DNA from: Candidatus Magnetomicrobium cryptolimnococcus
GTDB taxonomy: Bacteria > Nitrospirota > Thermodesulfovibrionia > Thermodesulfovibrionales > Magnetobacteriaceae
Direction: 5' to 3'
Assembly: GCA_018606805.1 (NCBI GenBank)
Contig: JAGYWI010000004.1
Coordinates: 152,666 to 216,665 of the forward strand
DNA: 64,000 bases
Positions 12,654 to 54,498 of this stretch are shown here, in pieces (position 1 is the stretch's first letter; each line of letters starts with the position of its first letter). The notes below the pieces were generated by a model, which saw only the letters and a program-made list of their open reading frames with translations, did not search any database and had not been told where the DNA came from. The translations under genes and the position numbers were made by a program.

Positions 12654-12715
12654 ATTTTTACTAAAACAAATATCAAGGATTCATAAAAAATAAATAACTA
12701 CACAGATGGCAGGAT

Positions 12716-12812
12716 AAAAGTTTTAGGAAGTGCGTAGGCGCACTCCCGTAAGGGGTGCAGGGCGCCTACGCGCCTTTTTCTCGAAAAGGGGTTCCCCCGC
12801 CATTATTTCCTT
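12716..12812 (+). repeat. Dispersed GC-rich hairpin repeat, copy A
   Basis: Order of parts: AAAAGTTTTAGGAA, GTGCGTAGGCGCACTCCCGT, GGGTGCAGGGCGCC, CCTTTTTCTCGAAAAGGGG, TTCCCCCGCC. GTGCG-TAGG-CGCAC and CCTTTTTCTCGAAAAGG both form hairpins. Related copies occur elsewhere in the window. The rest of the 12597-12928 gene-free stretch holds the operator palindromes and a promoter candidate. Confidence 0.8.
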
Positions 12813-16950: not shown

Positions 16951-16994
16951 AAGGGTCTTCTCCCACACCCCTTACGGGAGTGCGCCTACGCACC
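16951..16994 (-). repeat. Dispersed GC-rich hairpin repeat, copy B (partial, inverted)
   Basis: CCCCTTACGGGAGTGCGCCT followed by ACGCACC is the reverse complement of the core of copy A at 12730-12757. Only the GTGCGTAGGCGCAC hairpin part is present. Confidence 0.8.
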
Positions 16995-17073
16995 ATTCGC
17001 GACGCTTGCAATGACATGTATTTGTGATTTGTCAATAATAAAAAACTTGATCATCGAGTAAAGAGATAACAAG

Positions 17074-17153
17074 TCAAAAGTTTTAGGAAAGGGGGTGCGG
17101 GGGGACAACCCTTTTTCTCGAAAAGGGTTTCCCTCCGTTCTTCTATTTCCTTA
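17074..17153 (+). repeat. Dispersed GC-rich hairpin repeat, copy C
   Basis: Shares with copy A the AAAAGTTTTAGGAAA start, the GGGTGCGGGG core, the TTTTTCTCGAAAAGGGTTTC hairpin and the TTCTATTTCCTTAA end. It lacks the GTGCGTAGGCGCAC unit. Confidence 0.8.
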
Positions 17154-31246: not shown

Positions 31247-31465
31247 CAATGTCATTAACTTAAGGGCGAACACATAGGTTCGCCCCTACAAAAATACATG
31301 TACCGTAGGGGCAGACCTATGTGTCTGCCCTATGTTTTAGTGTTCTTATCAAATCAAAATGTGCTATATTATGACTCAAGGGGATTTTAAATGCCTATCA
31401 TTGCAAGCTGAAAACGAGTAATCTCTCAATGGTTAGAGGATGAATCCGTTAAGTTAATGACATTG
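31247..31465. mobile_element. MITE-like element with 17-bp terminal inverted repeats and 10-bp target duplication
   Basis: The ends CAATGTCATTAACTTAA (31247-31263) and TTAAGTTAATGACATTG (31449-31465) are perfect inverted repeats. The element is 219 bp, has no coding capacity, and is flanked on both sides by the direct repeat AATTAAGCTA (31237-31246 and 31466-31475). Inside is an imperfect inverted repeat, 31263-31289 against 31305-31331, containing AGGGCGAACACATAGGTTCG. Length of the target duplication suggests mobilisation by an IS4-type transposase, but no transposase is in the window. Confidence 0.75.
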
Positions 31466-38589: not shown

Positions 38590-38622
38590 AAAATAAAAAA
38601 TAGAAGATAGAAGATAGAAGAA

Positions 38623-38675
38623 AAGGGGGAAGTACTCTGTCCTTCCCCCTTAGACCCCCTACCTGCAAGGGGTCT
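38623..38675 (+). terminator. Double hairpin after murA
   Basis: AAGGGGGAAG pairs with CTTCCCCCTT (38623-38651), followed directly by AGACCCC pairing with GGGGTCT (38652-38675). There is no T-tract, so it may act as a transcript-stabilising or bidirectional element rather than a classical terminator. Upstream, 38590-38620 is a simple AAATAAA/AGAAGAT repeat. Confidence 0.5.
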
Positions 38676-38742
38676 AATGACCCCTTGACCCATTATGTGC
38701 TTAGTCGGTTGAATTCTTAAACATTGTACTTACATAACAACT

Positions 38743-38833
38743 AAAGCGTCTATTGGGGAAAGCGCACTGACCTCAAAGAAAGCCGAAAAGATGGCTTTCT
38801 TATACGGCCGTGCCATTTCCCCATAGACGCTTT
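38743..38833. repeat. Long three-helix hairpin element
   Basis: Outer arms AAAGCGTCTATTGGGGAAA (38743-38761) and TTTCCCCATAGACGCTTT (38816-38833) pair with a single bulge. A central perfect 9-bp stem AAGAAAGCC/GGCTTTCTT spans 38776-38801. A short GCAC/GTGC helix lies between them. The whole 91 bases can fold into one rod, as DNA cruciform or RNA. It is within the 38590-39299 gene-free stretch. Confidence 0.7.
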
Positions 38834-38841
38834 GGCGTAAT

Positions 38842-39015
38842 CAGGGGGAGTAAAAATATCTCCCCCTGAGAAAAGACCCCCTCTGGATTCTTTTCTCTAC
38901 TGGTGCGCAAGCGCACCAGATGTGCTACCACAAACTTTTATCATGTGGAGTTTCTGCGTGGCTCCAAAGTAGTGAGAGGGGGATTTAAAGGGGGAGATAT
39001 TTTTACTCCCCCTTT
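38842..39015. repeat. Inverted-repeat pair of palindromes enclosing a third palindrome
   Basis: A 25-bp palindromic hairpin at 38843-38867 (AGGGGGAG, 9-base loop, CTCCCCCT) recurs exactly as its reverse complement at 38989-39013. Between them CTGGTGCGC-AA-GCGCACCAG (38900-38919) is a near-perfect 20-bp palindrome. Lacks coding capacity; looks like a composite REP or MITE-type unit. Confidence 0.75.
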
Positions 39016-39022
39016 CAGCGCC

Positions 39023-39084
39023 AAATCTGCAATGGAAAGAAAACCCCCATTCTTTTTGGGGGGTTGTCTTTCCATTGCAGATTT
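39023..39084. repeat. Perfect 18-bp-stem hairpin element
   Basis: AAATCTGCAATGGAAAGA (39023-39040) and TCTTTCCATTGCAGATTT (39067-39084) are exact reverse complements. CCCCC and GGGGGG inside extend the stem. Total 62 bases. Confidence 0.85.
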
Positions 39085-39164
39085 ACTCGTTATGCCTGCA
39101 CAAACTTTGGAAAAACAAGTATCATCCTGCCACAGTGTACAACATTTAGCACTTATTGTCAGGA

Positions 39165-39299
39165 CAAAAGTTTTAGAAAAAGGGGTGCGGGGTTGGGGAG
39201 TGCGCCTACGCACCTTTTGCCTAAAAGGGTTTTCCCCCGCTCTTCTATCTTTTTTCTTCTGCCTAAAAGGGTTTTCCCCCGCATCCTCTATTTTTTTCT
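39165..39299 (+). repeat. Dispersed GC-rich hairpin repeat, copy E
   Basis: Starts AAAAGTTTTAGAAAAAGGGG and contains GTGCGCCTACGCAC. A 22-base block (GCCTAAAAGG...CCCCCGC) occurs twice, 39219-39240 and 39261-39282. It abuts the mnmE stop codon. About 60 bases match the inverted copy at 52993-53062. Confidence 0.85.
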
Positions 39300-48806: not shown

Positions 48807-49119
48807 AGGTTTCTTTTATAGCAAAGGCATGATGATTACTTAATGGAGATATTTTAAGAGTAGTTGCCAGCTAATAATTAAAAGATAATTGCTTTAAAAT
48901 GTAGTACAAGATAAGAGGGATGAGTAAAGAAATTGTAGGCTAAAAGTTTTTGGAAGTGCGTAGGCGCACTCCCGTAAGGTGCGTAGGCGCACTCCCGTAA
49001 GGTGCGTAGGCGCACTCCCGTAAGGTGCGTAGGCGCACTCCCGTAAGGGGGGCAAGAACAGAGATGTGTGCTGCCGCACACCTTTTTCTTGAAAAGGGTT
49101 TCCCCTCTTTATCTTTTTT
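48807..49119. other. Gene-free stretch holding dispersed repeat copy F
   Basis: After 130 AT-rich bases lacking features, a full-length variant of the dispersed repeat occupies 48942-49112. It starts AAAAGTTTTTGGAA and contains the four-unit array. GTGTG-CTGCCG-CACAC and a CCTTTTTCTTGAAAAGG hairpin come before the AIM24 gene's stop. Confidence 0.8.
48956..49047. repeat. Four perfect 23-bp tandem repeats with internal palindrome
   Basis: Units begin at 48956, 48979, 49002 and 49025. Each is GTGCGTAGGCGCACTCCCGT plus AAG and contains the hairpin GTGCG-TAGG-CGCAC. There are no intervening spacers, so this is a tandem repeat, not CRISPR. Confidence 0.95.
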
Positions 49120-52940: not shown

Positions 52941-52988
52941 AGGAGAAGAGACAAGGAAAAGAAAAGGAGAAGAGACAAGGAAAAGAAG
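52941..52988. repeat. Purine-rich 24-bp tandem repeat
   Basis: AGGAGAAGAGACAAGGAAAA plus GAAA or GAAG, two copies (52941-52964, 52965-52988), inside a purine-rich run from about 52919 to 53000, upstream of pheT. Confidence 0.85.
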
Positions 52989-52992
52989 TAGA

Positions 52993-53062
52993 AGAGCGGG
53001 GGAAAACCCTTTTAGACAAAAGGTGCGTAGGCGCACTCCCCAACCCCGCATCCTCTATCTTT
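52993..53062 (-). repeat. Dispersed GC-rich hairpin repeat, copy G (inverted)
   Basis: Reverse complement of the core of copy E at about 39184-39255. It includes AGAGCGGGGGAAAACCC, GGTGCGTAGGCGCAC and the GGATGCGGGGTTGGGG part. It is followed by a T-rich run to 53100. Confidence 0.85.
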
Positions 53063-53091
53063 TTCTTTTTTTTTCTTTTTTTTCTTTTTTT

Positions 53092-54498
53092 TTATTTTTT
53101 AGATGTTGGGAGTTCTATAGTAAAGACAGCGCCATCTTCCGTATTTTTTGCAAAGATTTTACCATTCATACTATATTCAATAATTTGTTTAGTCATATAG
53201 AGGCCTATGCCAGTACCTTTTTCTGTTTTGGTAGTGAAGTATGGTTCGAATATTTTATCGAGCAGTTCGGTTGGGATACCGCCGCCATTATCTGTTATTG
53301 TTATAGTTATTTTATCATTATCATTGGATATATATATGGTTATGAGGCCGTATTTTTCTTGAGGGGTGGTTTTTTGTCTATTTTCGATGATAGAGTCTTT
53401 GGCATTTAGGACTATATTCAAGATAGCCTGCATAAGTTCGTTTGATGAGCCGTATATGGTGAAGTCATCGGTAGAGTTGTCTATATCTATGAGTTCGTTT
53501 TGGTGTTTACAGAAGTATTTATATTTTATATTGTTTTTTCTAAGTTCGGAGGCTATCATGTTAACGATTTCTTTTATTGCGAGTTTGGCATCAAAGAAAA
53601 GTTTTTTATTGCCGTATTTGAAGAAATTTCTAAAATCGTCTATAGTTTTAGACATATAGTTTATGTATGCCATGGATTCTTTAACGACTTCCTTTATATA
53701 TGAAAAAGTTAGTTCGTTGAATTGGTAGGCATCTTCTAAGTCTTGGATTAAGAGACCGAGGCTATTTAGAGGTTGCCGCCACTGGTGGGCTATAGTGCCG
53801 ATCATTTCACCGAGTGAGGCTACCTTGGATTGTTGGATAAGGAGTTTTTCTTTTTCGATTCTTTTAGCGATTTCCTCTTGGATTTGGGTTTCAAGGAGTT
53901 TGTTTAGTTTTTCCAGTTGATTAGTTTTTTCTCTGAGTTGTAGTTGTATTTTAATAAGTTCGCGGTTTTGTTTAGCAGCGTTTTCAAAAGTTGAGATTAG
54001 TAGGTTTAGCATCTGGCGTTTTTCAAAATTAATATTATATTTTTTACCGCCAAGTTGTACTTCCATTAGGGAGGTTGGTTCTGTGTGGCGTAGTTGGCTG
54101 CTAGATATATATAGCAGGGATTCTACCATAGAGAGGAGTTCTTCTTTATCGTAGGGTTTAAACATGAAATTATCAGCGCCGCAATCAAGCCCATTTACTA
54201 TGCACTCCGGACCGGACAATTCAGTTAAGAGTATTATGGGGATATTTTTTGTATGTTCGTTTGTTTTGATTTTACGGCAAAAGTCGTAGCCATCCATTTC
54301 TGGCATAGCTATATCGCTTATAATAACGTTAGCCCTATTGTCCTTTATAACGTTGATAGCTTCGTAGCCGTCTTTTGCCAATATGACATTAAAGCCTTTT
54401 TCCAACATAAAGCGTTTCAAAAGTTCCCGTTGGGTTAGGCTGTCTTCTACAATTAAAACGGTACGTGCAGTATTTATTATTTTGTTTTCATCATTCAT
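53092..54498 (-). CDS. Hybrid response-regulator / histidine kinase
   Basis: 468 residues. Receiver domain at 1-125 (VLIVEDSLTQRELLKRF, phospho-acceptor Asp62 in VIISDIAMPEMDG). A coiled coil at about 165-220 leads to the kinase core: H-box TIAHQWRQPLNSLGLLIQDL, N-box ILNIVLNAKDSI, G1 DNGGGIP, G2 GTGIGLYMTK. Soluble, so it takes its input by phosphotransfer, probably from CheA upstream. Last gene of the chemosensory operon, 9 bases after cheB. Its output partner is unknown. Confidence 0.88.
   Translation of the reverse strand: MNDENKIINTARTVLIVEDSLTQRELLKRFMLEKGFNVILAKDGYEAINVIKDNRANVIISDIAMPEMDGYDFCRKIKTNEHTKNIPIILLTELSGPECIVNGLDCGADNFMFKPYDKEELLSMVESLLYISSSQLRHTEPTSLMEVQLGGKKYNINFEKRQMLNLLISTFENAAKQNRELIKIQLQLREKTNQLEKLNKLLETQIQEEIAKRIEKEKLLIQQSKVASLGEMIGTIAHQWRQPLNSLGLLIQDLEDAYQFNELTFSYIKEVVKESMAYINYMSKTIDDFRNFFKYGNKKLFFDAKLAIKEIVNMIASELRKNNIKYKYFCKHQNELIDIDNSTDDFTIYGSSNELMQAILNIVLNAKDSIIENRQKTTPQEKYGLITIYISNDNDKITITITDNGGGIPTELLDKIFEPYFTTKTEKGTGIGLYMTKQIIEYSMNGKIFAKNTEDGAVFTIELPTSKK

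Follow-up and report, generated by a model that had tools for sequence, protein, structure and literature searches.

Several families of dispersed bacterial repeats provide precedents for the element described here. BIME/REP sequences (PMC2817692, PMC3733652) are mosaics of palindromic units in alternating orientation that are intergenic, non-coding and lineage-specific and are found for the most part at the 3′ ends of genes and in gaps between convergent or tandem genes, and the present element resembles them in all of these respects. It differs in that its rods of 60–90 bases take the place of 20–40-bp palindromes with a GTAG/CGTC head, that it spans about 650 bp and is not tied to the RAYT of its genome, and that it shows almost no G-T pairing; G-T pairing of REP stems has been used as a sign of transcription (PMC3733652). 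The BOX element of Streptococcus pneumoniae (PMC3049150), which reaches 637 bp, is likewise a composite of exchangeable modules with large secondary structure but, compared by description, has the order boxA-boxB(n)-boxC with tandem boxB, whereas here there are two inverted units with swappable terminator-like ends and no tandem middle module was seen in the copies inspected. SPRITE of S. pneumoniae (PMC3049150) is similar as a terminator-like hairpin repeat enriched at gene 3′ ends, but is a single short element with AAAA/TTTT ends. Bidirectional termination has been proposed as a role for both REP and SPRITE repeats (PMC2817692, PMC3049150). Bacterial MITEs (PMC10969869) are also short, non-coding, dispersed and often structured, and one end module of our element, T2, is found on short elements with terminal inverted repeats as well; the 700-bp element itself, in contrast, has been assigned no defined terminal inverted repeat, target duplication or parent transposase. 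Finally, template switching at quasi-palindromes (PMC7202029, PMC8794818) is not an element but a mutational process, in which a single event produces double changes and by which the arms of an inverted repeat are made alike; both rods described below resemble its products, and its targets here would be dozens of paralogous palindromes of a single genome. Set beside these systems, the element is lineage-specific and of a known general kind (BIME, BOX, MITE-like), but it is new, unusually large and bears strong signs of arm homogenization.

The window, the whole stretch of DNA that was analysed, covers 64,000 nucleotides of the genome of Candidatus Magnetomicrobium cryptolimnococcus. Within it, positions 38590–39299 (710 bases) fill exactly the interval that separates the stop codon of murA (+) from that of mnmE (−), two convergent genes whose identities were confirmed by curated models. 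This interval contains a pair of long hairpin rods, two inversely oriented occurrences of a 25-bp hairpin sequence, one 20-bp palindrome, two further hairpins and a repeated 27-mer (Table 1). The predicted RNA fold of the region reaches −308.5 kcal/mol, compared with −191 ± 9 for 20 dinucleotide shuffles (z −13.7), and its DNA fold −163 (z −10.9, likewise 20 dinucleotide shuffles). An earlier note, made from the sequence alone, had described a cluster of at least five hairpin elements after murA, and every item it named is present in the sequence, including the 91-base three-helix rod, the 20-bp palindrome, the 25-bp sequence in two opposite orientations (0 mismatches, 0 expected by chance) and a dispersed repeat, which we find to be 27 nt long, with copies at 39214 and 39256 and a further one of 22 nt on the other strand at 52996. 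What it took for a hairpin with an 18-bp stem is rod 2, the stem of which is 26 nt long at 96%, and the two hairpins of T1 are additional to those it singled out.

Table 1. Anatomy of the copy between murA and mnmE, in window positions
Feature	Position	Strand	Remarks
Purine-rich left edge, AAAAATAGAAGATAGAAGATAGAAGAAAA	38590..38622		Directly after murA stop; roughly inverse of right edge; inverted repeats I3, I5, I7
Left end module T1: two hairpins, AAGGGGGAAG..CTTCCCCCTT and CAAGGGGTCTAATGACCCCTTG	38623..38691	+	Inverted repeat I8
CATAAC	38733..38738	+	Predicted to pair with GTTATG, 39089-39094, closing the two-unit fold (RNA and DNA folds)
Rod 1 of unit U1: long imperfect palindrome, three helices	38743..38833	+	Inverted repeats I4, I6; 32 copies
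Hairpin H1 of U1	38843..38867	-	Exact reverse complement of H2 in this copy
CCCCCTCT strand	38877..38884	+	Predicted to pair across the centre with AGAGGGGG at 38975-38982 (RNA and DNA folds)
Palindrome P, CTGGTGCGCAAGCGCACCAG	38900..38919		Right boundary of most U1-only copies
Central spacer, short in this copy	38920..38949		Site of GTAG-REPs or another inverted-repeat element in other copies
Start of unit U2, GTTTCTGCGTGGCTCC..AGAGGGGG	38950..38988	+	From boundaries of U2-only copies
Hairpin H2 of U2	38989..39013	+	AGGGGGAGATATTTTTACTCCCCCT
Rod 2 of U2: 26-nt stem, T-rich loop	39023..39084	+	Inverted repeat I2; 25 copies
Conserved non-hairpin stretch, begins ACTCGTTATGCCTGCACAA, contains GTTATG	39085..39165	+	25 copies within 3 mismatches
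Right end module T2: AAAAGTTTTAG..GGGGTGCGGGG, hairpin, then TCTTCTATCTTTTTT	39166..39250	+	Outward terminator-like end
Second, partial T2-arm copy	39256..39282	+	Direct repeat D1

In rod 1 the outer arms (38743-38760 and 38816-38833) enclose inner arms at 38754-38784 and 38793-38823. T1, read leftwards, consists of a hairpin followed by a T-rich run. The right edge of the murA–mnmE copy is pyrimidine-rich, and edges resembling its left edge were recognized by eye in most copies inspected. The two long-range pairings predicted for the fold receive no covariation support in the aligned copies, in the case of CATAAC/GTTATG because CATAAC is nearly invariant there; the CCCCCTCT/AGAGGGGG pairing is equally without such support.

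The region proved to be one of many copies. BLAST against the host genome (3.59 Mb in 91 contigs, completeness 98.5%) returned 171 matches, among them near-full copies 77–85% identical and partial ones that reach 93%. In this genome there are 32 occurrences of a 25-base pattern next to rod 1 and 25 of a 24-base pattern next to rod 2, against none of the reversed control; covariance models of the rods recover the same copy sets. In this census, which combines pattern and model searches at up to 3 mismatches and is a lower bound, at least 44 loci, mostly intergenic, have one rod or both: 13 contain the two together, 19 rod 1 alone and 12 rod 2 alone. As in BIMEs generally, the modules are found in both orientations, between genes and dispersed over these 44 loci; the GTAG/CGTC head of REPs is missing from the rods, and the GTAG-REPs carried by the genome's one RAYT-like gene have another sequence. 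The genome-wide search for further hairpin copies that the earlier note had proposed thus succeeded, and its suggestion of REP-like dispersed DNA is supported by these loci. The region is not a chance landing zone of unrelated hairpins: the same hairpins recur together and in the same order, as modules of one element, although nine other copies do hold GTAG-REPs (GTAGGGGC..) in or beside their centre. Pairwise identities are only 78–96% for the rod-1 unit and 67–96% for the rod-2 unit, a range that gives no hint of a very recent expansion in copy number. Of the end modules, T1 has 10 near-exact copies in the genome and T2 has 73 within 3 mismatches, many of them outside rod-bearing loci.

The window contains other repeats as well. 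Further T2-type intergenic hairpin repeats lie at 12694-12812, 16953-17149 and 52980-53107, and one exact GTAG-REP at 31264-31289. At 48956-49047, four 23-bp units GTGCGTAGGCGCACTCCCGTAAG, each a small palindrome, stand in tandem, and positions 1-1541 hold long exact direct repeats, spaced 668 and 752 bp, with 42-bp subrepeats; these repeats overlap open frames.

Comparison of the copies reveals a modular build. U1-only copies mostly end just after palindrome P and U2-only copies begin near CTCTGCG, boundaries from which it follows that the 700-bp form combines two units. At their left end copies can have T1 or an inverted T2, and in the tabulated copies the end modules, where present, have their T-rich side outward. 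Fusion copies are joined either at GGTGCG..CGCACC, a shared short hairpin or word (L083, L085, L089, L092), or at CTCTG (L082, L090). At 12 loci with both units, the divergence of U1 and that of U2 are uncorrelated (Spearman −0.07, Mantel p 0.67). Separate units, swapped ends, fusions and uncorrelated divergence together mark the element as a mosaic whose parts have separate histories. Copy L054 carries another inverted-repeat element in its centre, near 2640-2760 (G000:C5), with ends GGATGTTGGCTAA/TTAGCCAACATCC, and some T2 copies are carried by short elements with ends CAATGCCATTAAGTTAAGG. The family with CAATGCCATTAAGTTAAGG ends gives 96 pattern matches genome-wide at up to 2 mismatches (for example L115, L122 and L102), and its members carry the T2 hairpin.

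Beyond the host, 12 of 39 related genomes match the DNA query, and nearly all of these matches lie in T1, at the left. In a collection of 84,980 genomes, 7 stretches contain the T1 hairpin exactly, all of them from Nitrospirota and including Ca. Magnetobacterium casense. The covariance models of rods 1 and 2 found nothing credible in the 39 related genomes. One weak covariance-model match in relatives (E 0.0012) was rejected as a plain terminator-like hairpin. From the core of the conserved stretch 39085-39165, a 22-mer is absent from 84,980 GTDB-species genomes, a set that possibly leaves out the host's own or a very near genome, and a 21-mer is absent from IMG/VR viral contigs. The host genome is the sole member of its genus among the genomes returned. 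Judged by these sequence searches, the element is lineage-specific, and only its left end module T1 is common to the family (Nitrospirota).

The long palindromes vary between copies while their two arms stay matched, mostly by changes on both sides. In rod 2, all 420 of 420 pair cells are paired across 20 aligned copies (21 pairs); 11 of the 21 pairs have changed on both sides (57 cells), against a single one-sided cell, which is also the sole G-U pair (1/420). Some of the double changes are private to one copy (L059, L067, L070, L083). In rod 1, 94.6% of cells pair, and 14 double-changed pairs are seen among 30 copies where shuffles give 6.5. Its mismatches comprise 10 G-T and 11 A-C with no strand bias, and this equality means that neither strand is favoured as RNA. 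At the asymmetric inner loop of rod 1, the two arms of L080 both carry the left-arm form, and those of L065 both carry the form of the right arm. Matched changes that lack one-sided intermediates or G-U tolerance are what template switching between the arms of a quasi-palindrome would be expected to produce, and the matching therefore probably reflects maintenance at the DNA level by such switching, rather than a structured RNA. As a counterpoint, many rod-1 copies are imperfectly matched, so that arm correction is incomplete. The private double changes in rod 2 are few, and matched haplotypes can also spread when blocks are exchanged among copies, a possibility to which the two main rod-2 types point.

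The obvious rival reading of such covariation is a structured non-coding RNA, of the large ornate kind, encoded at many loci and with stems kept by selection on the folded transcript; a structured RNA locus had also been one of the proposals of the earlier note. The strong fold, compensatory changes far above shuffles and the location at gene 3′ ends all speak for it. We nevertheless regard it as quite improbable, since G-U pairs are almost lacking and the mismatches show no transcribed-strand bias, the units evolve independently, with one rod only at about two thirds of loci, the rods were not found in the 39 relatives, and an Rfam scan of the whole window at the gathering threshold detected tRNAs only and nothing for the hairpin region.

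Taken together, we think that the hairpin region is probably one copy of a lineage-specific, non-autonomous mosaic intergenic element, in which two independently occurring hairpin units, U1 and U2, are bounded by the outward terminator-like ends T1/T2. Its copies may have spread in the past with help from a trans-acting enzyme or, alternatively, as passengers of replication template switching or of recombination between hairpins. The arms would have been kept matched mainly by DNA template switching at quasi-palindromes and not by RNA selection, and copies would have been tolerated, perhaps kept, at gene 3′ ends where their ends could act as terminators for either neighbour. The analysis connected the element with neither a transposase nor an insertion event.

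As for the enzyme, the earlier note had pointed to IS200/IS605-like mobility, that is, a single-strand REP or IS200/IS605-type element moved by an HUH transposase (Y1 or RAYT). In favour of this proposal, the rods are imperfect palindromes and the genome does hold one RAYT-like gene (L094:1465-2079, G000:C68), but that gene is the only match in a Y1 transposase search of the genome and lies below the cut-off. One GTAG-REP pair lies inside its open frame and a second just outside; a gene that contains and adjoins GTAGGGGC.. REPs explains these guest REPs, which are a different repeat and merely sit inside the centre of some copies, and not the host element. Moreover, the bases just before the CATAAC of the rod vary between copies, so there is no fixed TTAC-like cleavage site. 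Neither a Y1 partner for the element nor the subterminal hairpins with a fixed cleavage tetranucleotide that characterize IS200/IS605 derivatives (PATE) were identified, and we consider this origin highly improbable.

A classical MITE would instead have been moved by a DDE transposase recognizing either the purine/pyrimidine terminal inverted edges or the end of an internal unit. The edges are indeed roughly inverse, and T2 also occurs on the short elements with clear CAATGCCATTAAGTTAAGG ends, a MITE-like layout. This explanation is doubtful all the same, as the edges of the 700-bp element are low-complexity purine/pyrimidine tracts of variable length, U1 and U2 occur apart and with swapped ends, and the search for an autonomous parent (Y1 and TIR pattern) found none. 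It is also improbable that the element represents a novel class of large mosaic mobile DNA, one that needs no dedicated transposase because it is propagated by template switching from hairpin to hairpin during replication; if it does, the process that keeps palindrome arms identical would also swap and fuse modules.

The 43 gaps that bear elements comprise 19 convergent, 18 tandem and 6 divergent ones. By comparison, 12 of 153 remaining pairs of adjacent ORFs from those loci and from the window are convergent (enrichment p about 1e-10), and 7 of 55 when the baseline is limited to gaps of 60 bp or more (p 4e-7). Both baselines come from a simple ORF caller, not from gene annotation. The preference for convergent gaps is clear, and it is not exclusive. 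Both element ends bear T-rich terminator-like hairpins directed outward, although a simple terminator scan called 3 terminator-like sites against 1.2 expected and did not recognize the outermost hairpins. These outward T-rich ends, together with the preference for convergent gaps, point to a possible role in bidirectional termination. Transcripts of the two neighbours, if both continue to the far end, would overlap within the element at their 3′ ends.

The same observations, enrichment in convergent gaps and outward T-rich end hairpins in the tabulated copies, could be explained without any mobile element, by a host functional site (a bidirectional terminator or insulator, or a nucleoid or gyrase site) selected between convergent genes. 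We consider this unlikely: more than half of the copies lie outside convergent gaps, six of them in divergent ones, 44 copies are too few for a general terminator, and no element was seen in the murA flanks examined in relatives, a partial test in which the reverse-murA loci showed the upstream side.

The combination of strong covariation with a near absence of G-U pairs carries a warning that compensatory change alone is no proof of a functional RNA. Dozens of paralogous long palindromes in one genome form a natural series in which arm sequence changes while complementarity stays, and this makes two questions testable: how perfect palindromes persist in bacterial genomes, and how mosaic interspersed repeats assemble and spread without a recognized transposase.
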